From the NCBI GenBank assembly GCA_018340375.1, contig JAFFJZ010000013.1, forward strand, positions 3,946,501 through 4,010,500: 64,000 nt of DNA. Direction: 5' to 3'. This document shows, piece by piece, positions 8,341 to 47,643 of this stretch (its first letter is position 1; each line of letters opens with the position of its first letter). The notes under the pieces were generated by a model. That model did not search any database and was not told the origin of the DNA. It saw only the letters and a list, made by a program, of their open reading frames with translations. The DNA is from Gonatopus flavifemur. Its lineage: Eukaryota > Arthropoda > Insecta > Hymenoptera > Dryinidae. Position numbers and translations under genes: made by a program.

Positions 8341-9279
8341 GAAGTGATCAGTCTTTCGATTGGTTTGATGGAACCCTCCACCCCTGTCTATTATCCGCCA
8401 AACGTTTGATTTCTACATATCTCCTACATCCCTTGTCTTGTACGATTTGCTTCATATAACTTGCTCTAGGTCTACCTTTACCAGTTTTACCATTCATTTT
8501 CCCTTCCAATATTGTTTTCAATAAACTCTCATGCCGTAATGTGTGTCCTATAAGATTGCTTCTTCTTTTCACGATGTGTTTCGTATGATTTCTTTCTTCA
8601 TTTATCTGCTCGAGTACTTCTTCATTTTCGACTTTGTCCATCCATTTTATTCTGAGCATCCTTCTATAACGCCACATTTCAAAAGCTCCAAGTCTTCGTT
8701 GATCAGTTTTCCCCATTGTCCAAGTTTCGCAACCATATAATGCTGTGCTCCAAACGTAACTTCTCAAGAATTTCTCCTTTACTTCCAAGCTTATATTTTT
8801 TGAGCCGGATGAGTGTTCCTTCCGGTCAAAAGCCTGTTTCCCTTGTGCTATCCTTGCTCTTATATCTCTTTCGCTCTTGCCGTTTTCTGTAATTATGCTT
8901 CCTTGATATTTGAATTCTTTCACCTGTTCAATTGTCTCGGTATCTATTTTGATTCTCGTTCTTCCAGCTGTTTTCGCCGCTGTATACATCATGAATTTTG
9001 TTTTGTCTTCATTTATATTCATGCAATAGTCTTCCAATAATATTGTCCTCGTATTGTTGAGAATATTTCCTGACTCAGTACTACTCGTGGCAAGTATAGC
9101 TATGTCATCCGCGAATCTCAGCATACTTATATTTTCTCCCTGGATCTGTAATTTCGATTGAATTTCCTCCTTCACTTCGTTCATTGCTTCTTCTATACAT
9201 GGATTGGAAATCAGTGCCGATAATGAGCATCCTCGTCTCACCCCTCTTTTTATCCGTGCTTCCCCTTCCTGACCCTCTA

Positions 9280-10570
9280 CAGGTTGGTTGAAGAGTTCCT
9301 GCGCTCACCAAGAGATAGCACTGCTAGCTCAAAGATTTTTTTTTCTCGAGTTGGTATATCTGTCCTGAGAACACATGCAAAGTTACAAGTCATTCTGTCG
9401 ATTCATTCTTTGTCTACAAGCCATTTGAAGTTGACGTGTCATTGATTTTTCTCAATATGGAAAAAATTTAATATCGTGCAGTCATTGGATTCTTTGTTTT
9501 GAAGGGTTTAAAAGCAAAGGAAATTCATGAACAATTGTTAGAAGTGTATGAGGAGTCCTCACCTTCAAAACGCACCGTTGAATTCTGGGCTGGTGAATTT
9601 AAACGTCGTCGTACTGGCCTTGAAGACGATCCACGCGAAGGACGACCAAAAACTGCAACCACAGCAGAAATCATTGAGCATGTACATAATATGGTTGGTG
9701 AAGATCCAAGTTTGACTAAGCGTGAAATTGCTAATGCCATAAGCATCTCAGAGGAATGAGTACTCCACATTCTACATGAAGAATTACGTATGAAAAAACA
9801 GTTTGGAAGGTTAGTGCCGCACACGTTAACAATTCAACAAAAACTGGATCGAAAACAAATTTCTCAGCGTAATTTGGAGCGTTTTAAGCAGCATAAAACC
9901 GACTTCTTGCGTCGTTTTATAACTATGGATGAGACTTGGATCTACCACCATGATCCTAAATTGAAACAAGAACGTTTAGAGTGGACTGAAGCTGGTTGTT
10001 CAGCTCCAAAGCAGGTGAAGTCACAACGATCAGCAAAGAAGGTTATGGCATCAGTTTCTCGGGATGCGAGAGGAATTTTGTCCATTGATTACCTTCAGAA
10101 AGGTGAAACAATCAACTTCGATTATTACTGCAGCCTTTTGGATCAGCTGCATGAAGAAATTCGTGAGAAAAGACTTGGTTCAAAGAAGAAAAAAATCATT
10201 TTCCATCAAGATAATGCACCTGCTCACAAAAGTGTTTTGACGATGGCTAAATTCGAAGGACTCAAGTACGAATTGCTTGAACATCCACCGTATTCGCCAG
10301 ATTTGGCTCCTAGTGACTACTATCTCTTCAGAAATCTCAAACAATTCCTTCGTGGAAAGCATTTTTCGTCGAATGGAGAGGGCATAGCAGCCGTAGACGG
10401 TTATTTTGCAGAGCTTCCGGAAAACCATTATAAGGATGGGATGAAATTATTGGAAGATCATTGGAACAAGTGTATTGAGCTTCTAGGAGATTATATTGGA
10501 TGAAAAAATATATTTCGTAACAAAAACAGTATTCTTTCATTTCGAGTGCAGAAACTTTTCAACCAACCTG
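9280..10570 (+). mobile_element. mariner DNA transposon, complete ends
   Basis: A 1291-bp element bounded by inverted CAGGTTGGTTGAA ends and flanked by TA at 9278-9279 and 10571-10572, the target duplication expected for Tc1/mariner. Size, ends and transposase all fit a full-length mariner. It interrupts the minus-strand LINE RT, so it inserted after that LINE. The transposase has two in-frame stops, so this copy is non-autonomous although its ends look intact. Confidence 0.95.
9457..10503 (+). pseudogene. mariner transposase (DD34D) with two stop codons
   Basis: The frame from ATG 9457 to the stop at 10501-10503 is 348 codons, the usual mariner length, with premature TAA at codon 5 (9469-9471) and TGA at 9757-9759. 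The N-terminal third holds helix-turn-helix DNA-binding segments (KGLKAKEIHEQL; TKREIANAISISEE). The catalytic triad is visible: D158 in TMDETW, D252 in FHQDNAPAHKS and D287 in SPDLAPSDYY, with 34 residues between the last two. The WVPHEL-type linker appears as RLVPHTL. The enzyme would cut and paste the element at TA sites. Apart from the two stops there is no frameshift. Confidence 0.93.
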
Positions 10571-15093: not shown

Positions 15094-16047
15094 CTATTTG
15101 AAGTCAGATTTTGTTTCGAATTGTGGCATTTCTGCTTGAGAGTTAAGAGTTGCTCGAATGTAGCCATCTCTCCTGTCGTGTCCATATACTTCTTCACTGG
15201 CTCTTGTTACCAGTTTTACACACCGTTCTACTGCCTGAGTGTGACAAGGGACTTTTTTCAGGTCTATTTCTAGTGTTGGTTTCTGTTTCTCCTCAATTAG
15301 CATCGAAATTTGCTGTGCGGAAAGAGAAGACAAGAATGGAGGACAGGTAAGTGTAACCTTAGACCAATTGATGATGTCAAAGTACTCTTGCGCTTCAAAA
15401 TTAAATTCAGGTACTTTAAAAGTCCTTACAAAAGCTTTTTTTGTCACGGGTTTTCCTTTTGTTTCGAGGACTCGCCTCAGACCTAGTTCTCTAATGCGCT
15501 CATCGTTATCCATTACCATAGACAGCAGAACATTTTCTGGATGGGCGAAGAAGCCGTTTGTCTGAATGACTTTATGTACAATATTCCTTACTTTAGGAGG
15601 TAACTTTCGACATCTTTTGATACAATCAAAAATGTGTTTTGGTGCTTCGAGAATAGAAGATTTTGTCTTAATTCGGAACCACAGTGGTGCGTATATGTGT
15701 AATATGTATGTCACTATAAGCTGCAGGCTTCCTGACGGGTTTGCAGTGGAAATATATAGCCTAAGAATTCTGTTAGCTGTGGTCAACCAACGAGCATGTG
15801 CTATTGGTCCCGGGTCACGGTTGGCTGGATCTGTTGAACAGGATCCTGAATCCATGCTGAGAGCAATCTCGTGTAAATATCTTTGATCTTCACTGAGGAT
15901 TTCGAAATCAATCTCTGGCAGAACGCAGCTGATCGGCTGAGAATCAACCACAGGCAACGACTCACATTCTGCAAGTTGTTTGCAGATAGCACCTGTGAAT
16001 GGATGAGGACCACTTGTTCCCCCATCAAGATCTTCGATGAGATGCCG
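15094..16047 (-). pseudogene. hAT-like transposase, C-terminal half (split)
   Basis: Continues the frame of 21710-23040 after the inner insertion, starting at RHLIEDLDGGTSG and ending at TAG 15094-15096, about 315 residues. The segment PIAHARWLTTANRILRLY resembles the RW motif region of hAT-type RNase H-fold transposases, and the rest is helical and uncharacterised. No stop or frameshift occurs. The ORF appears to extend to 16080 only because the inserted transposon end is read in frame (the residues before RHLIED). The final catalytic acidic residue cannot be assigned by eye. Confidence 0.7.
16043..16047. repeat. 5-bp target duplication, left copy (TGCCG)
   Basis: TGCCG lies immediately before the CACAGTG end at 16048, and the identical pentamer follows the other end at 21710-21714. 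A GC-rich 5-bp duplication is the hallmark of Transib and RAG transposition. Confidence 0.95.
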
Positions 16048-16082
16048 CACAGTGGGGCCAAATGCCAAAAAGCTGGACAAAA
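16048..16082 (+). repeat. Transib left terminal inverted repeat (RSS-like)
   Basis: Heptamer CACAGTG, then 22 bp, then ACAAAATTA, which matches the RSS nonamer ACAAAAACC at 6 of 9 positions. Probable transposase binding and cleavage site; the nonamer comparison is my inference. Confidence 0.85.
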
Positions 16083-16089
16083 TTATAAG

Positions 16090-17035
16090 GGGCTCTCAAA
16101 TTCGCTTGCGACTCCGTACTCGGGAAGTTTATGGGGTCACTGATGACGAATCCGTTGTCAGAATTTCAAAATTCGAAATGGCGGATCCAATATGGCGGAC
16201 GAAAATTGAAAGAAACCATCGGATTTCCTCCAAACTTGGTGATCAGGGGTTTTTGGGGTCGCTGATGACGAATCTGCTGTTTGAGTTCCAAAATTCAAAA
16301 TGGCGAATCCAATATGTCGGACGAAAATTTTAAAAATCATCGGATTTTCCTCAAATTGGGTACCCAACGGTTTTTGAGGTCGCTGATTACGGATCCGTTG
16401 TTCTCATTCCGAAATTCAAAATGACGGATCCAATATGGTGGACGAAAATTGGAAGTAATCATCGGATTTTTTTCAAATTTGGTGATCAGGGGTTTTCGGG
16501 GTCGCTGATTACGAATCCGCTGTCTGAGTTCCCAAATTCAGAATGGCGAATCCAATATGGCGGACGAAAATTGAAAAAATTATCGGATTCTTTTCAAATT
16601 GGGTACCCAGAGATTTTTGGGGTCGCTGATTACAAATCCGTTGTCTGCATTCCGAAATTCAAAATGGCGGATCCAATATGGTGGAATGGAATCGAGAAGA
16701 TCATCGGATTTCCTTCAAACTCGGCATCCAGGAGTTTTTGGGGTCACCAATTACGAATCCGTTGTCAAAATTTTGAAATTCAGAATGGCGGATCCAATAT
16801 GATGGACAAGAATTAAGAAAATTATCGCATTTCCTTCAAACTCGGTACTCAGGGGTTTCTGTGGTCGCTAATTACGAATCCACGGTCTGAGATTCAAAAT
16901 TCAAAATAACGGACCCAATATAGCGGACGAAGATTGTAAAAATCATCGGATTCCCTTCAAACTCGGTACCCAGGGGTTTTCGGGATCGCTGATCACGAAT
17001 TCGTTGTCAGAATTCCGAAATTCAGGATGGCAGAT
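16090..17035 (+). repeat. Left subterminal array of ~121-bp repeats
   Basis: At least seven degenerate tandem units with the core GGATCCAATATGGCGGACGA occur at about 16181, 16304, 16423, 16545, 16667, 16788 and 16909, each followed by CATCGGATTT...GGGGTCGCTGATTACGAATCCG. The same repeat is present in inverted orientation near the right end (20680-21130). The apparent ORFs here are repeat translations. Confidence 0.9.
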
Positions 17036-17281
17036 GCCAAAAATCAAAACTTCATTCATAACTTAATATTAAACAAGAACTAAACGGCCCATTTTGTTGT
17101 TCCTATTATGATCATTATTATTATTATTTCCAACATTGAATCATTATTAATATAATTATCGGATGATATTAACACACCAAATGTGTTAAATCGAAAGATA
17201 TATACATTCACAATATATACAATAATATAAAAAACTGGAATCGTAATGGTTTTTACTTTTGCCGCACTTTTTTCACTCAGA

Positions 17282-19782
17282 TCAGTCTTCTTCTTCACTC
17301 TCAGAGGAAGATAATGGGAAAGTTACGTTGTCTTTATCAAGTATATCCGGAGTTTTGATCAGGCTTAACACGTCTCTGGGGAGAAACTTTAGTTTTTTCT
17401 TGGGCAACTGTCTTTTACTCGATAACATTGGATCAGAACTCAAAAGGAACCATTTAAAAATGTCTTCATTCGTTTTTTCTCTACTGCATTTCCTGGAGTG
17501 ATGCTCTCGGTACCTTTGGAAATGAATGTTGTTAAGATATTTGAATATAATTATGTATTCATCGACACCGTTAAAGCTTTTGATCTCAACATGACAAGCA
17601 AAATCAAGGAAAAACAAAAAGCAGCTGCACTTTGGGGTCATCAGTATAAAGTTTCGAATAAATCCTCTAATTCATAAGTTTACTTGATTCTTAAAATTGT
17701 TCTCTAGTCTATGAATTTATGTTTCCAGAGGATGAACAATGTGGCTTATTAATAAAGAAAAGTATATGAATATTCATAATTCCCCGAATTCCTTACCAGA
17801 ACAAAACAATCTTCGCGAACATATATTCTCGTGGTTACCATAAATATATAGTTTGCCTAGTAGTCAAAAACGTATTGTGCAATGTATCAAACTGATTGCA
17901 GTACTTGAGAAGTCAAATTTTTCCCTTCAAAGTGTCGAGTCCACTGTGACAAATATAGACTATTATTAAGTGATATACATCATTTTCACCTTTTTAAATC
18001 TTTGTTACGAGCCTCTTGTGCTTCCTCAGTCAATTGGCCAATAGGTAGAAGAGCAGATGCAATGATTTCAGGTTCGTGGATCAAAAACTTGTGCATCGTA
18101 GGTGACATTGGGTACCACGGATATTTTGTCGCGTAGTAGCGTGCCGTGTCTAAAGCGTAACTCCGAAACTTTTCAACGTCTATTTCATGGCCACTTGAAA
18201 CGGTAGCTAATACTACATGAAGTCGTTGTATTAGGTTGACATCCACCCCTGTGATTCCGGCAGACACTTCGGGTTGTGCGAAAAATCGCCTAGCGGTATT
18301 CCCATCATTTGAGTTCCCAAACCCTGGCTTAGGAACATCGACAATGAGGCCACATTTTTCTTTCGAACTTTTCTGTACAACCTTTTTTCGTTCTTCCGCC
18401 AGAGCTTTATCTTGTTTTCGTGCTTGCCACTTCTGAATAGGTGGCTCATAAGACAAATGCAGGAGGCCCTCAAAAAATCGTATCCAGCCGTGTAGACAAG
18501 ACAAACCAAACTGGAGGTTTTCGGTTTTGACCGGCCTGGATACTATATCATCAATTTTGTTGAATTCCTTAGATGTGGCACCACATATATAGCACTTCTG
18601 GGTATAGGTTGTCTCATTTATGGCATTGCATACCTTCCCGTCCACCATAGAAAAAATCATCTCATGTTCCACTGAAACATAGTTTCCATCAGTTCTGAAA
18701 GAAGTAGCCCTCAGATTTTCTATTTCATTATCAACCCGTAGCTTCTCTGCAACCGAAACTCCAGTTGATTCTCTCACAAACTCTATTTTGATTGGCCCAC
18801 AAAATCTGGTTGATGATGGCCTTGGATTCTGCCAAATTATTTTTGAATTGCAGTGTAGGCGGAGAGGCACAAGCGAAGTAATGAACACAGCGGAATCACT
18901 AGCTTCCGAACTTTGATATGCTTGTTTGTATGAGGAGTGGCCAGAGCTCCCATCGAACCCCCATTTGGAAATAAGTACCAGGTTTTGTAACTCTTCATCA
19001 GATAAAGTTGACAAAACCGAATTCTGTAGCTTTAAAATACATGTAGCTGTGTGATCAAGAAGTGCTTGTAGTTGCACAACAGCGCGGGTTTCTGTTATTT
19101 GAATAAATTCCTTGTCAGGGAAACACATGCGTTTGGCCAGTTGAATTTTTTTATAAGGTGGAAATTTCTGCGGATCAGCTTCACGCAATAAGCAGTACTG
19201 ATGTTTTGAGGGCTCGGCATCTACTAGGAGAGCTAGAGCATCTTCATCATTCAACATCTTTGGCTCATTTCGCTTGAGAGTTTGATAACCTTTCATATAC
19301 ATTTTGGCAAGCTCAGGATCAGAAGATGTAACATCCTTTACAATTTTTGCGGCTCCGATCTGTCCAGACGCTCTCAAACACATTTGTGTGGCGTAAGACA
19401 GCTCTGAGATAGGAGTATTTACTCTGATATTCTCCGTTTTCCTACGTTTCGTTCTTTCTGAACATTCGTTGAATTCAACAAGAGGTCTTCCCACTTGCGT
19501 GTGAACATTTACAGAATGGGGATTCCTGAAAGTACAAAACACTACCTCTTGTTTTAACCATTGTTCATTATTTTTAAGAAATCGTCCTTCGGTCCTTTGA
19601 GAAGATTCCCATCTCTTCTTGTATACACATTTGAAAGTAGATAAAAGGTTAGAGATCTCTGTAGTTTTGTTATCCGGACAACACGTTATCTCGATGATTT
19701 TTCCTTGAAGGAAAGTGAACTCTTCATCCAACGTAGGTAGGGGACTGCTCCTCAAAATATTGTACATCTCTCTCCGAGTCAT
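17282..19782 (-). CDS. RAG1-core-like Transib transposase, two exons
   Basis: Exon 1 is 19782-17990 and exon 2 is 17513-17282. The intron has a GTGAAA donor and a CCAAAG acceptor and rejoins in frame for a 674-residue product (2025 nt with stop). Like RAG1 and Transib it should nick and hairpin DNA at CACAGTG ends. Visible matches to RAG1: D277 in WGFDGSSGHS (D600), D381 in FSMVDGKV (D708), E590 in QEARNKDLKR (E962, in NESGNKLFRRF), zinc ligands C397/C400 in CYIC (C727/C730), and H564/H569 in MHKFLIHEPEII (H937/H942, in FHKTLAHVPEII). GNTARRFF parallels RAG1 GNFARKLM. The C-terminus is acidic (SSSESEEED). There are no RING or N-terminal RAG1 domains. ATG 19782 is the first in-frame start after a stop; an upstream exon cannot be excluded. 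No disabling mutation was seen. Confidence 0.92.
17642..17985 (-). other. Intron of the Transib transposase (part of 17514-17989)
   Basis: This AT-rich DNA lies within the proposed 476-bp intron. The splice is supported because the RAG1-like alignment runs from NKDLKR in exon 1 into YREHHSRK in exon 2, parallel to RAG1 FRRFRKMNAR. An unspliced transcript would stop at 17986-17988, directly after the catalytic glutamate region. Confidence 0.7.
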
Positions 19783-20679
19783 AGATATTGAATCATTTTA
19801 GAAATCTACAAACGTTGTAGAATTCGATGAAATTCGCTACAGAAACCCCATGTGTTTCTAAAAATTTTCCTAATTTTCTTGGGTTGGATTCAACCCTCTT
19901 AAGCTAATTTTTTTTGCAGTCAACTGTTCAAATTAAACTACTAAGAAAATATAGGTTGTTGAAACACTCACCTATGGCAGCGGAATCCATCTCATTTGGA
20001 ATTGTATGTTAACATTGAATGATTTTAAAAAACGAAAAATATTCACCAAGCTCCAAACTTGCACGCGGAAAAAAGTTTACGGTAACGATCACTAGCAAGA
20101 GTAAGAATTCGGTGACAGCTATTGCACAATTGTGATAAGCACCATTTGAAATCAGACCGATTACAACCAACTATTTACGTTGCCATGGAAACGATAGGTC
20201 AACATAAAAACGATCACCAAATCGCGAGTCATGATTCAGTTCACGAAAAGAAAAGGGATATCAATACTTGAATAACATTTATAAACATTTAGGAAAATGA
20301 CGGGAGATTCACTTTAGGGAGAAGGAGCATCGCTGAAGAATGTTGGCAGTGAAGTTACCAAAAATTCGTAGTAATAATACTAAATGTTGGTAGTTTTATT
20401 GTCATTTCCCATAGTGAATTCATCAACTCATAGTAAATTCACTACGAATATTCTCCAGCAATACTGTTTTCCTCTCAATGGTCCATCATCTTCTCAAATA
20501 TCAATGATTCCTGGCCTTTGTGTACCCTAAGCCCGCGATGAGAAGAAAAACGAATGGTAATCAATCTCATACAGTTTTCCTCGTGCAGCAAATGTACACT
20601 GAAAATAAAACACATACTAACGTTGAGATAAAATTCAAAGCGAATCTACCGAATTCTGAGTTTTGTGTCCACCATATTA
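19783..20679. other. 5' region of Transib gene; no separate gene
   Basis: Probable promoter and 5' UTR side of the minus-strand transposase. A minus-strand ATG followed by a GTGAGT donor lies at about 19975-20000 (plus strand CACTCACCTATGGC), but no acceptor joins it in frame to 19782, so I do not annotate an exon. Nothing else is recognised. Confidence 0.4.
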
Positions 20680-21130
20680 GATACGCTATCTTTGATTCTT
20701 GGAATTCGACAACTGATTCGTAATCAATGACCCCACAAACCCTGGATACCGAGTTTGAAGGGGATCTGATGATTTTTTCAATTTTTTCATGCCATACTGG
20801 ATCCGCCATTCTGAATTCCGGAATTCAGACACCGGATTCGGAATCAGCGACCTTAAAAACCTCAGGGTACCGAGTTCGAAGGCGATCCGATGATTTTTTC
20901 AATTTTCATCCGCCATATCGGATCCGCCATTTTGAATTTTGAAATTCAAACAACGGATTCGTAACCAGCGACCTCAGAAACCTTTGGGTAACGAATTTGA
21001 AGAAAATCCGATGATTTCTTTCAATTTTCGTCCGCCATATTGGATCCGCCATTTCGAATTCCAAAAGACAACGGATTCATGATCAGCGACCCCACAAACT
21101 CCTGCATATCAAGTTTCAGACGGATCTAAG
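20680..21130 (-). repeat. Right subterminal array of ~121-bp repeats (inverted)
   Basis: About four units of the same repeat as 16090-17035 on the opposite strand, with CGCCATATTGGATCCGCCAT cores near 20800, 20920 and 21040 and ATTCGTAATCAGCGACC between them. Together the two arrays form long degenerate subterminal inverted repeats. Confidence 0.88.
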
Positions 21131-21674
21131 GACTCCTCATCACTCCGTCTAATTTTTTGTGATTTCCTGCACAAAAACATGGCGGAATTGCTTAGGGGCA
21201 GACATGGGCAGCCGTTTTTTTTTCCGATGTTTAGGTAAGAGTCCCATCTACCACCTCCGATAAGTGAAACGACGTAATTTTGCGTAATCCTCTACTATTC
21301 TTTCAAAAACCAAACACATTTTCTCATTTATAGATATAGAAATTACATCCAATCATTGCTCTGTCAGTATTCTCCACTCATCAAATTGATATTCTCTTAA
21401 TTCTTAGTGTATCCCACATAGTTTCAGTAATAGACTTCGATTTGAAAAAGTTAAATCGGTTCATTTTTCGAGACACAGCGTCTTTTTGAACATGCTCGTT
21501 ATCTTACTGTCTCTCAATCACGCGGATTATACTTCAAGGAGGGTATTTTGCAACTGGTACACAAGGGCAGGGGGAGGGGATCAGATCTTCTTATATCAGA
21601 ATTCCAATACTTGGGACATCACCTTACTTATCCCAAAGGTCAAATATCCCCAACTACAAACTTCATTTTTGGGG

Positions 21675-21709
21675 TTTTGGCCAGCTTTTTGGCATTTGGC
21701 CCCACTGTG
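21675..21709 (-). repeat. Transib right terminal inverted repeat (RSS-like)
   Basis: Read on the minus strand: heptamer CACAGTG, 22 bp identical to the left end, then CCAAAACCC, matching the RSS nonamer at 7 of 9 positions. Followed by the TSD TGCCG at 21710-21714. Confidence 0.85.
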
Positions 21710-23040
21710 TGCCGCAAAGGCAATTCGTTAAAGTGCATGAGGCAGATAACCCATTGTAAGGGTTTTTGTAATTTCATCTCAATATGTTTAATGGCTCCAT
21801 TTTTCCAGCCAGTATTTGTTGCTGTGCCATCGCAACCGATACCTGCAATACCAGGTGTCTCTATAGCATTGTCTTCGAAGTACCTCACAATGCTGAGGGC
21901 TGTATCCTTTCCGGTCTTTGAATCTGGTACTATATGGCAAACATATTTTGAGCCAGGTTCCTCAATAACAGAAATATGTTCTTCTTTTTTCTCTGTTTGG
22001 TAGCGTTTACCGTTTCTTTCTTTTAAGTACAGTGTGTTATCTGATCTGCCGTCAAAGTACAAACACTCAGGACCCCCTGCTTGTCGCTCAATAAGCTGCG
22101 CTTCAACTAAACTAGCTCTGCATTTCTCTTTCTCACGTCTAATCTTGCTTCGATCAATAATCATAGATGAATTTTCATTAGTGACTAATCCCACATCTTT
22201 CAGCACGCTTGAAGCTATGGCTGCTGCTGCTCTGTCAGAAACCCCATACCGATCACATATCCCCCCAGTTGCTGGCAATGACAAACGCATTTGTTTTTTT
22301 TCAGAAACAACAGACGTTGAGCGTGGGAACTGAAAGGTTGCATCGTGCTGTTCATTGTCATTTCCTTCAAAATGTTTATTTTCTGTTTCAGGAATAGTGC
22401 TAAAAGAAGACGGACCTGCAGCAATTTCTATAGAGGAGTGCTGCAGAAGATTACTACGTTCTCTCCTCTGCATTTGTTTTGTCAATCTTTTGGTTTCTGT
22501 CAAATCTTTGGCTCCAATTTTCCCCTTCCTCAAATACCTTTGTGCATACAGAAACTTGAGTTCTATTACAGGTATTTTTCTGTCTTTAGGGCACCTGCAT
22601 TGAATGACAACAGGATTGGAGCAAATGCATGCACTGAAAGATTCGTTGCAAATGCACTCAAATGTCATAGGGCATTTACATGTAGAAATATCGAATAAAG
22701 TTTCACATGACTCTTGGATAAAGTTCTTGTACTTTTCATGTGTTTTTTCCCTCTTGTAAGATTTTCTGAGAACATAATATTTGTCATGCAGGACTTTTAT
22801 TTTCTGTATTATTCTAGCATGAGAAACGGCAGGAATGGAAGCTTTGCAATACAATGCCTCCAATTGTGAGGCTACACTGCTAGCCACTAAAGGAAAGTTG
22901 ACTTTCTCCCCGGAGCACAGTCTATATCTTTCCTGGTGAAAAGCTCTCACGACATCCGCAGATGTTGGGAGGAAGGAAAGCGGCAATGGTCTTGGGGCCC
23001 CGAAGAAAGGACACGCCGTGTCTTTACGTGTCAGGGACAT
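21710..23040 (-). pseudogene. hAT-like transposase, N-terminal half (split)
   Basis: Starts at MSLTRKDTACPFFG (ATG 23040) and runs about 444 residues to MHFNELPLRH, where the inner Transib interrupts it; with 15094-16042 the full product would be about 759 residues in one frame. A cysteine-rich segment (CKCP...CICN...CICS...CRCP) may bind zinc. Candidate catalytic aspartates of an RNase H fold are D330 (LYFDGRSDNT) and D404 (GIGCDGTATNTG), followed by an ICLMHFNEL helix like the CxxH region of hAT enzymes. An in-frame ATG at 23118 would add 26 residues encoded by a tandem repeat, so 23040 is preferred. The superfamily is inferred from the 8-bp TSD and motif layout. Confidence 0.72.
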
Positions 23041-23048
23041 TGATAATC

Positions 23049-23350
23049 GATAATCAAGGATGTGTATGTGGAAATATATGCGATGCACACCAGCGCGTGT
23101 GGATTTTTCATAAGACACTCAGTCTGTAATAACGCTGTGACGATACAACAGATAATCAAGAATGTGTAGGTGGAAATATATGCGATGCACACAAGTACGT
23201 GTGGATTCTCTATAAGACACTCAGTCTGCAATAACGCTGCGACGATACAACCGATAATCAAGGATGTATATGTAGAAATACATGCGATGCACACAAGTGC
23301 GTGTGGATGTTCCATAAGACACTCAGTCTGCAATAACGCTGCGACGATAC
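23049..23350. repeat. Three tandem 102-bp repeats
   Basis: Units begin GATAATCAAG at about 23049, 23151 and 23253, and each contains ATGCGATGCACAC and AAGACACTCAGTCTG. The period is a multiple of three, so the minus strand reads as a 34-residue repeat. It lies directly upstream of the outer transposase start and may be its promoter-proximal region. Confidence 0.9.
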
Positions 23351-41156: not shown

Positions 41157-44100
41157 TCAATTACTGTCCATTCTGTCAGCAATTGCAGTAGCTTGCCAAG
41201 GAATCTCTCCTTCTTCATCAAAATAGCGACAAAATTCGTCCCTGACATATTTTGCTACCTTGGTACTATTCTTGTTATCCAGGAAATGTCCTCTCAATCC
41301 TAGACGCACAGCTGATTCGTTCATGAATGCTCTCCATTGTCCAGGGTAAAAATTCCCTTGCGTATCTTCACGATCTACCATTGTCTTTTCTATGTAATGT
41401 TCCCTTTCCGAATGGTAACTACCAAGCCAGTTATGGAGGCATACAATTGCTTTCACAATATCACGCGCTACCTCAACCTTGCACTCTATCGGTTTCCGAA
41501 GAATTCGCCACTGACTTACAATTATACCGAAAGCGTTTTCAATTACTCGACGAGAACGTGATAATCTGTAATTGAAAATTTCTTTTTCTCTCGACAATCC
41601 CTGTCTCCCTGGATACGGACGCATCATGTATGAAGACAATGGGAACGTCTCATCGCCTACAAACACATACGGGAGACTAGGACCATCCTCGTATAATGGT
41701 TCCGGTGGGGGAAGATTCATAAATCCTGTTTCTAAATGACGTCCTATTGATCCTTGTCGAAAAATTCCTGCATCTCCTCGTCTACCACATGCTCCGATGT
41801 CAACGCATCGAAACAAATATTTAGCATCACAAACTGCCATCAAAACGATGCTGTGGTACCCTTTATAATTGTAATACTGGGAACCTGCATGAGGAGGGCA
41901 CTGAAACACAGTTATGATACCATTTTAAAACGAATAAAATGCCCTGTTTTGCATACATGATAATAGTTTTTGTAAACAAAGCATTGAATGATGAATTGAT
42001 GATTTTCTATCAAGACGTACTTTCGAAAAGTTATTTACATTCCACTTCAGACATTTTTTCCACCTCAATTACGAAATTTTTCAAATTTATCCATCAACTT
42101 ACAGATCTTGATCACAGGATTTCATGATAATTGATTATTCATCATTCTCTTCAATGATGATATTGCCAAGAAAACATTGATTGGAAACAATTCGACTTTC
42201 TGATAATAAATTGTAACTCGATCTTAAAAATTTTGCAAAATTAGCTCCTCATTAAAAAACACATTACTGAACATGGTTACTTCTAAAAAATCATAATTTT
42301 TCGCCAAACATTAAAGTTTTTACAATTTACTGGGAAAAAATGGATCCGTTGTGATCAATCAATGCAAATTACAAAAGTGATCAATATAAATGTAAAGTAA
42401 AAGGTGAAAATTTTCGAGTCCGCCAAATATATATTAATATATTTTATGTCAATTTTTTAAAGCAAACAAAGCTTTCGTAATAACACAATGAACTTGCAGT
42501 TCTCCGAGATACGTAAAAGACATTACTTCTGTATATAAAACATATATCACAAAAGATATCTCTTGTACGTGCCCAAGCGACATCTTTCAGATATCTAAGA
42601 ATATTGGTCAAAATAAAGCGTACAACAACCCAAGTAGCACCCGAACGTTGTATACATACTATGAACGTGCATAGTACGTATACAACATTTTTTTGCTACT
42701 AGGGAATGCTCTAAAAGCATGCAGATCGTGGAAAATGGGACAGATTCGCACTGTTTGCCCGCTTTTCGCACATCCTTGCACGCTTTACTTTTACCAGCGA
42801 CATGTCTTGTCGCTTCATCAAGTAGATGTCTAAAACTTTTCAAATTTAGTTATGACATAGATTAGATATCTATGAATGATTTGGTATTTTATGAATGATG
42901 AAAAGATATCTTTCGGAATTCGAAGACATCTTTTACATATCTGATGGATATTGTTCCATTTTTGGGGATAAAAAATACAAGCACAGAAATTATTTTCTAA
43001 ATTTTTCAATTAACCCGCATCCGTCCCTCGTATCAATTTGATACATTTTCCAATTTTGTTCGGATCTATATCAACGAATCTATTCATCCAATTATGAAAC
43101 TCTTGATATGTTATAAGAAATAAGTCGAAGATTGAAATCTCATGGTATGCAGAGGTTTGCGTTGTGTGCATCAGTTTATACAGAAAGAAAGAAATTTAGT
43201 GGACAAAATGAGGGACGGATGCGAGTTAAATCAACTTTGGCGTTGAGAAGACTATGCTTGTGAAAAAGAAATCTTCAAAATGATTCCTTCTCATTAAAAT
43301 AAAATTTTTCCAATCAGAAATGTGCAGATTTTGAATTAGCTGTTTGAGAATTCAATTATTCTAAATAAGTTTGAATCACTTTTAATCAGAGATTTGCACC
43401 ATCAATCGTTTTGAATGATTTCTTTTTTACAGAGATTAAATCATTAGTATTCTATATGATATTCTTAAAACATCATAAAGACGTTTATAGTCGAGATCAA
43501 AGATCACTTAGCATCACGAACATGATTTTGAGAGTATTTTATAAGAAATATTTGAACATATTTACTGAATTCCTTACATCGATTTCAATATGTCTTCCAT
43601 CGATGGCTCCACAACAATGAGGAAAGTTCCATGTATTTTCAAAATCTGAAGCTATTCTTCTCCATATACTTTCCGTGCAAGGCGCTAAAACCAGGGGTTG
43701 CAGAACTTCCCAAATGACATTGCAGGTTTCTTTAATGATACATGAAACTGTAGGTTGTGCGATTAGGTAATGATACATCATCGATGACTGACAATCACCA
43801 GTTGCAAGAAACCTAGACGATTTTTTCAATTTATATTATGAAACTCATAAATCTATGATTAAAGGAATACTCCTGTTTTATTTATATGAAATCTTTAATG
43901 CATTGAATACACAAAGATTTTGTAATGTCATTATATATTATATGATGTGTAAAAATGTAACACTAACCTCAGTGTTAATGCCAAACGTTCTCCAGCTGGT
44001 ATTGATGCTCTAACAGCATGTTGTTTGGTTATTCGAGGACCAACAATTTGTAGCAGTTCTTCAAACTGAGTCACTGACATTCTCATGTAATTCTGAAAGC

Positions 44101-44338
44101 GATTGTCATCAAACATGAGTTCCGGTACAATAGCATTGTAGAAGCCGTGTACAGGACGTAGTTTTAAAAGCCTTGAAACCCAGATCCTTCTTTTGCGTTC
44201 CTCACGTTTACGGGATGCAACCATAATCAATCCGACTGCTGCAGATAAAATGTTCCTTCGCCAACGTTGTTGTGCTTCATTTGCATTTGCATTTTGTTGT
44301 AAAATTAATTGCATATACTTCTTTTCCATTTCATTCAT
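41157..44338 (-). CDS. PIF-Harbinger transposase (HARBI1-like), three exons, apparently intact
   Basis: Exons are 44338-43968, 43812-43578 and 41900-41157, with donors GTTAGT and GTAAGG and acceptors TCTAG and TTTCAG. They sum to 1350 nt, a 449-residue protein with no stop. Exon 1 ends with ERLALTLR and exon 2 opens FLATGDCQ, the family signature joined across the splice. Catalytic residues of the DDE_Tnp_4 fold: D in GAIDGRHIEI (end of exon 2), D in FRCVDIGACGRRGDAGIF, and E in RRVIENAFGI; YYNYKGYHSIVLMAVCDA is also diagnostic. The start MNEMEKK follows AT-rich sequence; further upstream in-frame ATGs look non-coding. Intron 2 is about 1.7 kb. It acts with the divergent MADF protein of the same element. 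Confidence 0.9.
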
Positions 44339-44865
44339 ATAAAAACAGATAAATCTAAAAGAAAAGTTCATCACTATTGAGTGAAACACATCACATGCGA
44401 AATAAAGTGACATAAATAACAAAAGAGCAAAATCTTACTTCAATAAAAAACTTTTATCCAAAATTGTTGATATTATTGATATAAACAAAAATACTCAAAC
44501 TGTTTTTGATAATCCTCTTACTGAGATTGAAAAGATATAAATGATGAGCCTTTTATTAACATTTCTTTTTATACCATGTTTCAGCCAGGATTCAATCAAA
44601 AATTTTGTAAGGAATCCCTGTAACACATAATAAACACTGACCAAGACGCCATTTTCAGGTTACACCACTTGTCGTTTGGCGCTCGTCGCTCGTCGCTCGT
44701 CGCTCGTCGCTCGTCGTTCGTCGCTCGTCGTTCGTCGCTCATCGTTCATCGTTCGTCGCTCGTCGCTCATCGCTCTCTCCATGTAATGGCACCTTGAGAA
44801 CACATGATGGAGTTTTCTCAAAACAATTGACATTGAACATCTCGTCACCCACTGGATTCTATCTT

Positions 44866-46752
44866 TTAATCGCAAAGAATGTACAAAAGTAATTTATCAG
44901 AAGAGTAACAGAGTAAGAGTAATGTTTTTTGTAACACAATATTGCTATTGCTTACAGGTATTTGGCCAATACACAGCAATTTATAAAACCACTCAGCACC
45001 CAATATGGCATCAATCTCAGCTGGTTTATGAAACTCTGAATCGGCTAACCTAATATTGATTGGCATATTCAATTGATTCCTATTGGGCAAACGTTGAGAT
45101 GGTAGAGGTTCGGTGATTTTCTGTAAGATCAAAAAATTTATTCTAGCTGAGAATTCATTGTTCTCTGATTTTATAGTTGCGTTTACTGAATAATTAACTT
45201 GGGAAACTAGCTGATGTATGCCACAAATGGTAATATCACTTCTCTGAGTACTCAAGCCTAATTTCTCCACGAGACTCATTGAAATAAAATTTGATTGCGA
45301 ACCGGAATCTAGTAATATTCTACAGGGATGAGAATTTCCCAAACAATCTAAAATATTAACAACTGCAGTTGATAATATGACACTGATCGATTTTTGTGAC
45401 GTACTACTTGTCAGATTGACTTGTGGTTTACTGAAACAAGGGTTTGTTGTTGAAGCAGTGCCCTGAGGAACATTTTGAGGATCGATTTGGGAATCATTTT
45501 GTACATTTGTTCTGGTCTCAACAGACACGGATCTGTGCAACAAACAGTGATGTTTCCCATTGCATTTTTCACAATGAGAGGAAGTACAATCATTGATCAT
45601 ATGATTCGACTTCAAACAATCAAAGCAGAGTCCCGCTCTTTTAACAATATTAATTCGATCTTCGTAATTTGCTGTCAATAATTTTTCGCAAGATTGCGTA
45701 AAATGAGCTTGTTTGCAAATATGACAAAATGGTTTTGTTCGGGCAACATAATTGGTTGAAAATTGATTAGATTTTTGCATTGTGTTACGTGAAGTGGTCG
45801 CTCGATTGTGATTATTATGATTGACCGACTCATCTGATTTAGTCTCTAATATTTTTTGCCGATGATGCAAAAATTCTAATAATAAATCCATATTTGCATC
45901 CTCTGCATCGTGTAACTTTTCTCTCCACAGCATTTGAGTTTGGTTATCAAGTTTTGATACCACTGCATAGATAGGGAATGACTGTAAGAATGGTTGATTC
46001 AATGCTTGTAAAGCACGATAATGTCTAGTAGCTGTGTCTAATATATCACCGATTGAAGCAGCAGTGGCCTTTGGAACGGCTTTTAAATCGAATAATCCTT
46101 TTATACGTTTTTGAATTATAGCCATAGGGTCATCGTAATACTTCTTCAAAATTGACCAGGCTATGACGTAGTTAGCATCTGTATTATCTAGGGACTCAAT
46201 TTTTTCAAGCGCCTTTCCGGAAAGACATGACCGTAAATAAATCAATTTCTGTGAATCTCTGAGTTTAGGATTTGCATGTATTGCAGATTCAAAGGAATTG
46301 GCAAACCCAGGCCATGCTTCGTAAGAGCCACAAAAATTCGGTAGCTCCATCTTCGGAAGTTTGACTGAAATATCATTGTTTGAATTTGCATCTGCTTGAA
46401 CAGCTGCCATGTTATTACCAACATTATGATTTGCTAAAGCATGATCATTGGCAAGATTATTACGATCATCTTCATTTATCAAAGCCTGAGCTCTTGCAGA
46501 GCATTGAACATATTCTTCTTCGAATTCAATACGATTATCGTACTCATTCTGTACTTGATCATCTTCGACTAACTCTTCAATTTTCGTTTGAATTTCTTCG
46601 AAACGTTCTAGAACAACTGACAATAATATGACTCTAGTTCTTAATTGCAATATATCAGGTTGAGCGGCATAATCGTCTGAAAACTTCTTGAATTTAGTTA
46701 ATTTAGCTTTCACCGCTCCTCTTTCTCGATTCAATGATTTAAGTGTACTCAT
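44866..46752 (-). pseudogene. BEL/Pao retrotransposon gag-protease, 3'-truncated
   Basis: A 628-codon open frame starting at MSTLKSLNRERGAVKAKLTK. A coiled N-terminus is followed by the BEL gag domain from about residue 133 (LPKMELPNFCGSYEAWPGF...YLRSCLSGKALEKI). Three zinc-binding segments follow: CHICKQAHFTQSC, CFDCLKSNHMINDC (CX2CX4HX4C) and CEKCNGKHHCLLH. Then comes the aspartic protease with LLDSGSQSNFIS and GAEWFYKLL. Homology ends at NSNIVLQKT, where full-length Pao proteins run on into RT; the last ~20 residues come from unrelated DNA. RT, RNase H and integrase are missing, and the Harbinger end lies only 72 bp away. No LTR was identified. Confidence 0.9.
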
Positions 46753-47643
46753 TTTTATGTTAATTAAATAATCAAATTTGAATATTTACGTGATATGACA
46801 ATCGTTATTGGATGTCAAAATCTCAACCGGAATTGAAGGTCACATTGTATGATCAATAATCTGCACATTGATAGATGATCAACAATCAGCTAGAGTAGCG
46901 AATTATCAAATTCAATACTAGTTTTTGATTTAATACTAATTTACGAAGAATTATAATGATCACTTATAATTATAATCTAGTGTGACGTTTATATTCCAAT
47001 GTACAATTTTTCTAGTAACAGACATAAGACGAGTGACAAATTTTCGTAACACAACGCACTCACACTTGAAATGAGAACTGATCAAAATGTTGACAACTTA
47101 CAGAATGTTACTATTTGTTTTTCTAATCCCTTACGTTCGCACTTTGAATGCGCTCCTTTGTTGTGTTGTGACGCGATCTATGTTGTATGCCTCGGCGTAG
47201 CTTTCCTCGATTGGTTCTGTTCCCGTTGTTGTGGTGCGATTCACGTTGTCACTGTACGTCTTAATCGCTTGTTGTGATGTGATTCAATCGATGTCATGTG
47301 ATTCAAAATCGATCGAATCAATCGTTTTCGTTGCTGTGGCTCAATCCACATTTCCGCTGTATACATTAATAACTAGATGTAAAACGCCTCAAAATCGAAA
47401 TGAATCGATTTTCTCGTTTTCGTTGTCGTTATCGTGATTCAGTCCACGATCGCCTCACGTATCCTTCCACGTTGTATCGTGAACCAATAGATGTCGCAAG
47501 CGTCAAATGAAACGTATATTGTTTTCCAAGAAAAGTTTGGCTTCGTTAACGATATACACATATATATGTATATATATATGTGTCCACTGGAATATTTAAT
47601 CGTTGCAAAGATTTTCTTTGTAACATCGATGAACTTTATGTAC

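Follow-up and report, generated by a model that had tools for sequence, protein, structure and literature searches.

Transib DNA transposons encode the transposase only, have GC-rich target duplications of 5 bp and are bounded by terminal inverted repeats (TIRs) that begin with the heptamer CACWRTG, and the heptamer of the V(D)J recombination signal is identical to CACAGTG. The ProtoRAG/BbRAGL and RAG1 systems have heptamer-like ends and a RAG2 partner; in RAGL/ProtoRAG transposons the RAG1-like and RAG2-like genes are convergent. A Transib transposase structure is available for HzTransib of Helicoverpa zea (PDB 6pqn, 6pqx). Here, a 64,000-bp stretch of the genome of the dryinid wasp Gonatopus flavifemur (referred to as the window; all coordinates are given in it) was analyzed, which contains at positions 16048..21709 an element of 5,662 bp. 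We are close to certain that this is a full-length Transib DNA transposon belonging to a high-copy family, which would move by pairing of its ends, cutting at CACAGTG and staggered joining over 5 bp. The target site duplication (TSD) of 5 bp corresponds to that of Drosophila hopper and transib2, which belong to the Transib superfamily (PMC3276498). The element is a clear addition to the known Transib kind and shows no new mechanism; what is unusual is the number of coding copies.

Ends and transposase of the element

The stretch over which the two ends agree base for base is exactly 29 bp long (CACAGTGGGGCCAAATGCCAAAAAGCTGG), with CACAGTG as the first seven bases of each TIR, and the 29-mer was found at no further place in the 64-kb window at up to 9 mismatches. 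The element is flanked on both sides by the perfect TSD TGCCG (Table 1). These ends and the GC-rich duplication had been pointed out in an earlier note on this DNA, together with a stop-free two-exon protein of 674 residues, and all three were confirmed. The gene lies on the minus strand, its spliced product of 674 amino acids starts from an ATG, and the frame joined across the 17990/17513 junction continues into residues shared with HzTransib and with the homolog profile at that point. The junction given in the earlier note fits, and splicing at it in vivo is presumed.

A profile was generated from 49 proteins, namely the window protein and 48 of 120 listed homologs. With this profile HzTransib was recovered at 1.4e-181 (608 bits), the amphioxus RAG1-like protein at 5.5e-11 (45 bits) and vertebrate RAG1 at 2.6e-8 (36 bits), which bears out the proposed Transib identity. 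By sequence comparison, residues 182-603 of the exon 1 frame (603 amino acids, stop to stop) aligned with HzTransib (E=4.4e-107). In total 859 homologs were obtained at E<=0.001, and all organism-named proteins among the 120 listed are insect proteins. The best-scoring protein among the matches listed is Sitophilus oryzae LOC115890777 (P0001; 56% identity, 100% query coverage), which was compared as protein only and shares the C-terminal region past the splice junction.

Counterparts of the RAG1 residues D600, D708, E962, C727/C730 and H937/H942 had likewise been proposed, and they could be aligned. In the profile alignment D381 and C397/C400 pair with RAG1 D708 and C727/C730, and H564/H569 and E590 pair with H937/H942 and E962. 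D277 pairs with the D600 counterpart solely in the amphioxus RAG1-like protein; the RAG1 alignments start downstream of D277. D381, C397, C400, H564, H569 and E590 are invariant across the 49 rows of the alignment, and D277 is present in at least 90% of them. An AlphaFold2 model of exon 1 had a mean pLDDT (predicted local distance difference test score) of 89.7, and all 49 PDB matches obtained with this model in a fold search at E<=0.001 were HzTransib, RAG1 or BbRAGL. Alignment and predicted fold agree with HzTransib and RAG1 in an RNase H fold with the DDE (aspartate, aspartate, glutamate) triad D277, D381 and E590. With HzTransib the wasp protein shares the transposase core, the predicted fold and the catalytic and zinc-binding residues, at about 42% identity in the best structural alignment; the comparison was made at the level of the protein.

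As the V(D)J heptamer and the RAG1 fold are shared, the element could be regarded as a RAGL/ProtoRAG transposon or as directly related to the ancestor of RAG instead of an ordinary insect Transib, which we consider very improbable. ProtoRAG/BbRAGL and vertebrate RAG1 have the fold and the catalytic residues in common with the wasp transposase but are distant in sequence, and HzTransib is far closer than either of them in the profile scores. No frame of more than 160 codons lies wholly inside the element except for the transposase exons (frames read stop to stop, minimum 80), although no RAG2 profile was run. When both consensus ends were scanned for a nonamer at spacings resembling those of recombination signal sequences, the heptamer was present, no significant nonamer was detected and the 12/23 signal of V(D)J recombination was not found. 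The left end matched at 6/9 positions (P=0.15) and the right end at 7/9 at a spacing of 21-22 (P=0.03; both against shuffled ends and uncorrected), and a 7/9 match at spacing 10 occurs in both ends. Transib ends with symmetric spacers of 20-22 bp, and a few with 12/23 asymmetry, are described in PMC8355894; the right-end match is compatible with this description, yet it is no evidence for it.

In a tree of 47 proteins, which contained no RAG protein, the window protein falls inside a set of 22 (support 100/99), the named members of which (Sitophilus, two aphids, Rhagoletis and Amyelois) come from a beetle, aphids, a fly and a moth. The ant and bee proteins in the tree (Temnothorax, Osmia) are placed outside this set. 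The placement also fits horizontal movement between insect orders, without being proof of it. The expectation that the element would be informative for the origins of RAG holds to a modest degree, given the distance of RAG1 (about 1e-8 versus 1e-181), the lack of a significant nonamer and the lack of a long second frame.

For an ordinary Transib element of this build, the following sequence of steps is proposed. The two-exon gene would give rise to the transposase, which would pair both 29-bp ends and cleave at the 5' edge of CACAGTG; the ends would then be joined to a target of the CRNYG type with a 5-bp stagger, leaving a 5-bp duplication on both sides of the insertion. Cutting, hairpin formation and strand transfer are presumed by analogy with HzTransib and RAG.

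Tandem arrays of a 121-bp repeat, absent from the earlier note, lie inside both ends and are inverted relative to each other. Core units were counted by Hamming distance across 33 copies of the family (see below). The left array contains 7 units in 21 copies, 6 in five, 5 in six and 4 in one, and the right array 3 units in 30 copies and 2 in three; these counts indicate that the arrays vary mostly by whole units. In the titles and abstract openings of the Transib papers listed in literature searches, no subterminal arrays of such a kind are described. The arrays probably serve as extra docking sites for the transposase or for a host protein.

Copies and insertion sites in the genome

Cytochrome oxidase I from a 30.8-kb contig of the assembly is 81% identical to that of Dryinus sp., and the next matches reach about 77% or less. 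The assembly of 636,049,841 bases was searched with two patterns at up to 3 mismatches. For the 29-bp end 1,037 matches were obtained (523 forward and 514 reverse), and since the backward pattern gave 0, the ends are more than a chance occurrence. A coding 35-mer around the first catalytic aspartate gave 385 matches (196 and 189), again with 0 for the backward pattern. In a protein search of the genome with exon 1, in which 73 of 2,127 candidates were scored, all 73 matches cover residues 1 to 596 or 597, and 56 of them are free of stops. Among 100 listed end places 33 facing pairs were found by eye at distances of 5.3 to 7.6 kb, the window copy included; the sample analyzed below consists of this copy and 32 others (L009-L040), which were fetched by their ends.

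Identical 5-bp flanks were found in 25 of the 32 other copies, in line with the expectation that further copies with CACAGTG ends and TSDs exist in this genome; here the TSD is the only independent evidence, the ends having served as search key. Three additional copies were picked by the exact coding 35-mer: in L047 both ends are exact and the TSDs match, L048 has one exact end only, and L046, which is truncated by a contig end, has neither. The 25 fetched copies, the window copy and L047 form a set of 27 matched sites, of which all 27 conform to NRNYN, 19 to CRNYG and 12 to CGNCG (GC content 76%; TGCCG in the window copy). When the 300-bp flanks of 34 copies (window copy, the 32 others and L047) were compared by BLAST, a single pair shared sequence, namely L025/L026, and in both of these copies the TSDs do not match. 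The 27 matched sites are read as independent insertions.

CGNCG is described as the preferred insertion site of Transib (PMC4735498; PMC5704228). The same two sources report this preference for a Trichoplusia ni Transib in a baculovirus, which resembles the wasp family in its target site; the two were compared by this site. In contrast, the target given for Drosophila hopper and transib2 is CCANTGG (PMC3276498), as opposed to CRNYG/CGNCG in the wasp family. With regard to a spread through viruses, an exact 26-base end pattern and a 21-base repeat core gave 0 matches each in viral contigs.

Some observations weigh against the reading as a full-length Transib of a high-copy family. The Pfam RAG1 model reached 15.9 bits on the spliced protein, below its cut-off of 25, which we read as distance from RAG1 and not as a weak Transib assignment; a Pfam scan of exon 1, exon 2 and the two host halves (see below), each taken as a separate frame, returned 0 families at E<=1. 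Identical TSDs are missing in 7 of the 32 copies, with a difference of a single base in two of them and a larger one in five; such mismatches fit recombination between copies or misassembly. Furthermore, the sample was chosen for perfect ends among the first 100 of 1,037 places, by which conservation and intactness are biased upwards and the first contigs are favoured.

The five copies with flanking pentamers that differ by more than one base (L013, L014, L021, L025 and L026) have pentamers that all fit NRNYN (10/10), a pattern that recombination between two insertions, or their misassembly, would produce. In four other copies (L016, L028, L034 and L038) a stretch of about 0.8 to 2 kb within the element is foreign or has been replaced. 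According to the G. flavifemur genome paper, DNA transposons, mainly CACTA, hAT and Mutator, account for 40.3% and are credited with genome growth (PMC8314478), and the word Transib is not present in the main text of that paper. Our guess is that part of the Transib copies may have been classified as CACTA owing to their ends starting with CAC.

Age, integrity and substitution pattern of the copies

The copies differ from their majority sequence by 1.2% on average (range 0.5 to 1.9%; 32 copies, arrays excluded), and the spliced frame with start, stop, reading frame and GT-AG borders is intact in 15 of 33. L038 was excluded from the divergence and from the ratio of nonsynonymous to synonymous polymorphism (pN/pS) because its replaced segment was misaligned. 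That the family has transposed in the past follows from the 27 TSD-flanked sites with unrelated flanks, and a recent movement of the family is well supported by the sequences. Among the 31 other copies private variants (251 to 103) had a pN/pS of 0.67 and shared variants one of 0.45 (232 to 142, counted per copy), or 0.47 when distinct shared variants were counted (89 to 52). This contrast has the direction expected from constrained active lineages together with drifting dead copies, with 0.67 still below 1. The intact frame and the lower pN/pS of shared variants might alternatively be attributed to a domesticated transposase gene that is useful to the host. We consider this explanation extremely improbable, given the perfect ends and TSD, the hundreds of copies and the insertion inside another reading frame.

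The description of the element as recent and possibly active holds in part. The family has moved recently, as seen from its low divergence and intact frames, and the host frame around the window copy is uninterrupted after removal of the element, but several features of this copy speak against activity. It lies 1.84% from the majority sequence, the fourth highest value of 32, and its protein differs from the majority of the 33 copies at 25 residues. It is altered at 10 of 148 columns that are kept by at least 90% of 48 homologs (homolog median 4, maximum 12); six of these alterations (248, 329, 389, 446, 473 and 570) are not shared by the family as a whole and the other four are family-wide. 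Its private coding changes comprise 13 nonsynonymous and 2 synonymous ones. From this the window copy could well be dead, with an open frame and an enzyme disabled by substitutions, so that its movement would need the transposase of other copies; this is compatible with the reading of the family as Transib, and the probabilities for and against a dead copy are evenly balanced. On the other side, there is no stop, frameshift or loss of a splice site, and the catalytic and zinc-binding counterparts are retained. In addition, T>C/A>G changes make up 55 of the 77 positions at which it departs from the majority. Assembly errors in repeats may account for part of this class, and without it the divergence of the window copy is average (0.53% versus 0.50%). 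The window copy may perhaps be active, and part of its changes may be assembly errors.

The excess of T>C changes is seen throughout the family. Variants were scored on the aligned copies L009-L040 together with window positions 17041-21709, and distinct shared variants comprised 210 T>C versus 44 C>T. The T>C changes have a strict context, with T as preceding base in 84% and C in 12%, and A as following base in 43% and C in 27%. The four-gamete test failed for 21.6% of T>C site pairs versus 8.5% for other variants, uncorrected for allele frequency. Strict context and extra four-gamete conflicts suggest recurrence at the same sites. Individual copies carry 9 to 62 T>C sites, a number that correlates weakly with that of their remaining changes (rho 0.34, p 0.056). 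On contig 35, nine copies located at 0.88-3.97 Mb have a median of 46 versus 25 T>C, in a grouping that was made after viewing the data.

Long nuclear copies of mitochondrial DNA were also found (L042, L043, L044 and L045). Three of them share 93-96% identity with L041, the mitochondrial contig, and have a COX1 frame with TGA as the only stops; the fourth is 87% identical. In L042, L043 and L044 together, 38 of 86 private T>C changes lie in the T>C context (12/33, 14/31 and 12/22), against a background of 0.21 to 0.24, and in the more diverged L045 the count is 95 of 218. The mitochondrial contig itself has no such enrichment (7/30). The excess in L045 amounts to roughly 43 sites over background, and because this is inside the range per Transib copy, L045 leaves the choice between error and real mutation undecided.

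The assembly was made from nanopore reads with long- and short-read polishing (PMC8314478), and for this reason the T>C excess is most simply explained by nanopore miscalls that persisted in repeats. An alternative, which we consider unlikely, is that the Transib copies have been altered by a context-bound T>C process in nuclear DNA (T after a pyrimidine, often before A or C) that is seemingly recurrent, maybe dependent on the region and also at work in nuclear mitochondrial copies. If true, an insect would here possess a mutator or DNA-editing activity not described so far, which contributes to the disabling of its transposons.

The interrupted host frame and the meaning of the family

Removal of the element and of one TSD copy results in an uninterrupted minus-strand frame of 785 codons. 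For the encoded protein (759 amino acids from the first Met) 350 homologs were obtained at E<=0.001; the best of them is 60% identical over the full length, and the named homologs among the matches listed come from a beetle, moths, a butterfly, thrips and phylloxera. The interrupted frame can be placed in a large family of arthropod proteins that are uncharacterized, and it may be a gene or another mobile element. The surroundings are rich in repeats, with frames at 9760-10503 (+), 8348-9304 (-), 44866-46785 (-) and 41157-44434 (-), which presumably encode proteins resembling mariner transposase, the reverse transcriptase of long interspersed nuclear elements, BEL/Pao gag and Harbinger-like proteins.

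Table 1. Features of the Transib element and of the frame that it interrupts (window coordinates)
Feature	Position	Strand	Basis or remark
Left TSD copy, TGCCG	16043..16047	.	identical to 21710-21714
Left TIR, 29 bp, CACAGTG start	16048..16076	+	end comparison
Left subterminal array of tandem 121-bp units, about 7.5 copies	16127..17040	+	7 core units counted
Transposase exon 2 including stop codon	17282..17513	-	spliced frame
Intron, 476 nt, GT-AG	17514..17989	-	spliced frame
Transposase exon 1, encoding residues 1-597 plus part of residue 598	17990..19782	-	holds D277, D381, E590, C397/C400, H564/H569
Right subterminal tandem array, inverted 121-bp unit, about 3.6 copies	20668..21099	-	3 core units counted
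Right TIR, 29 bp, identical to left	21681..21709	-	end comparison
Right TSD copy, TGCCG	21710..21714	.	identical to 16043-16047
Host frame, 5' part; read stop to stop, it opens at 23118 and contains the first Met	21710..23118	-	reading frame
Host frame, 3' part	15094..16047	-	reading frame

The accepted account of RAG origins is unchanged by this family. With many sibling RAG-like transposases and their ends in one genome, G. flavifemur offers a natural set in which the requirements for Transib proliferation can be studied.

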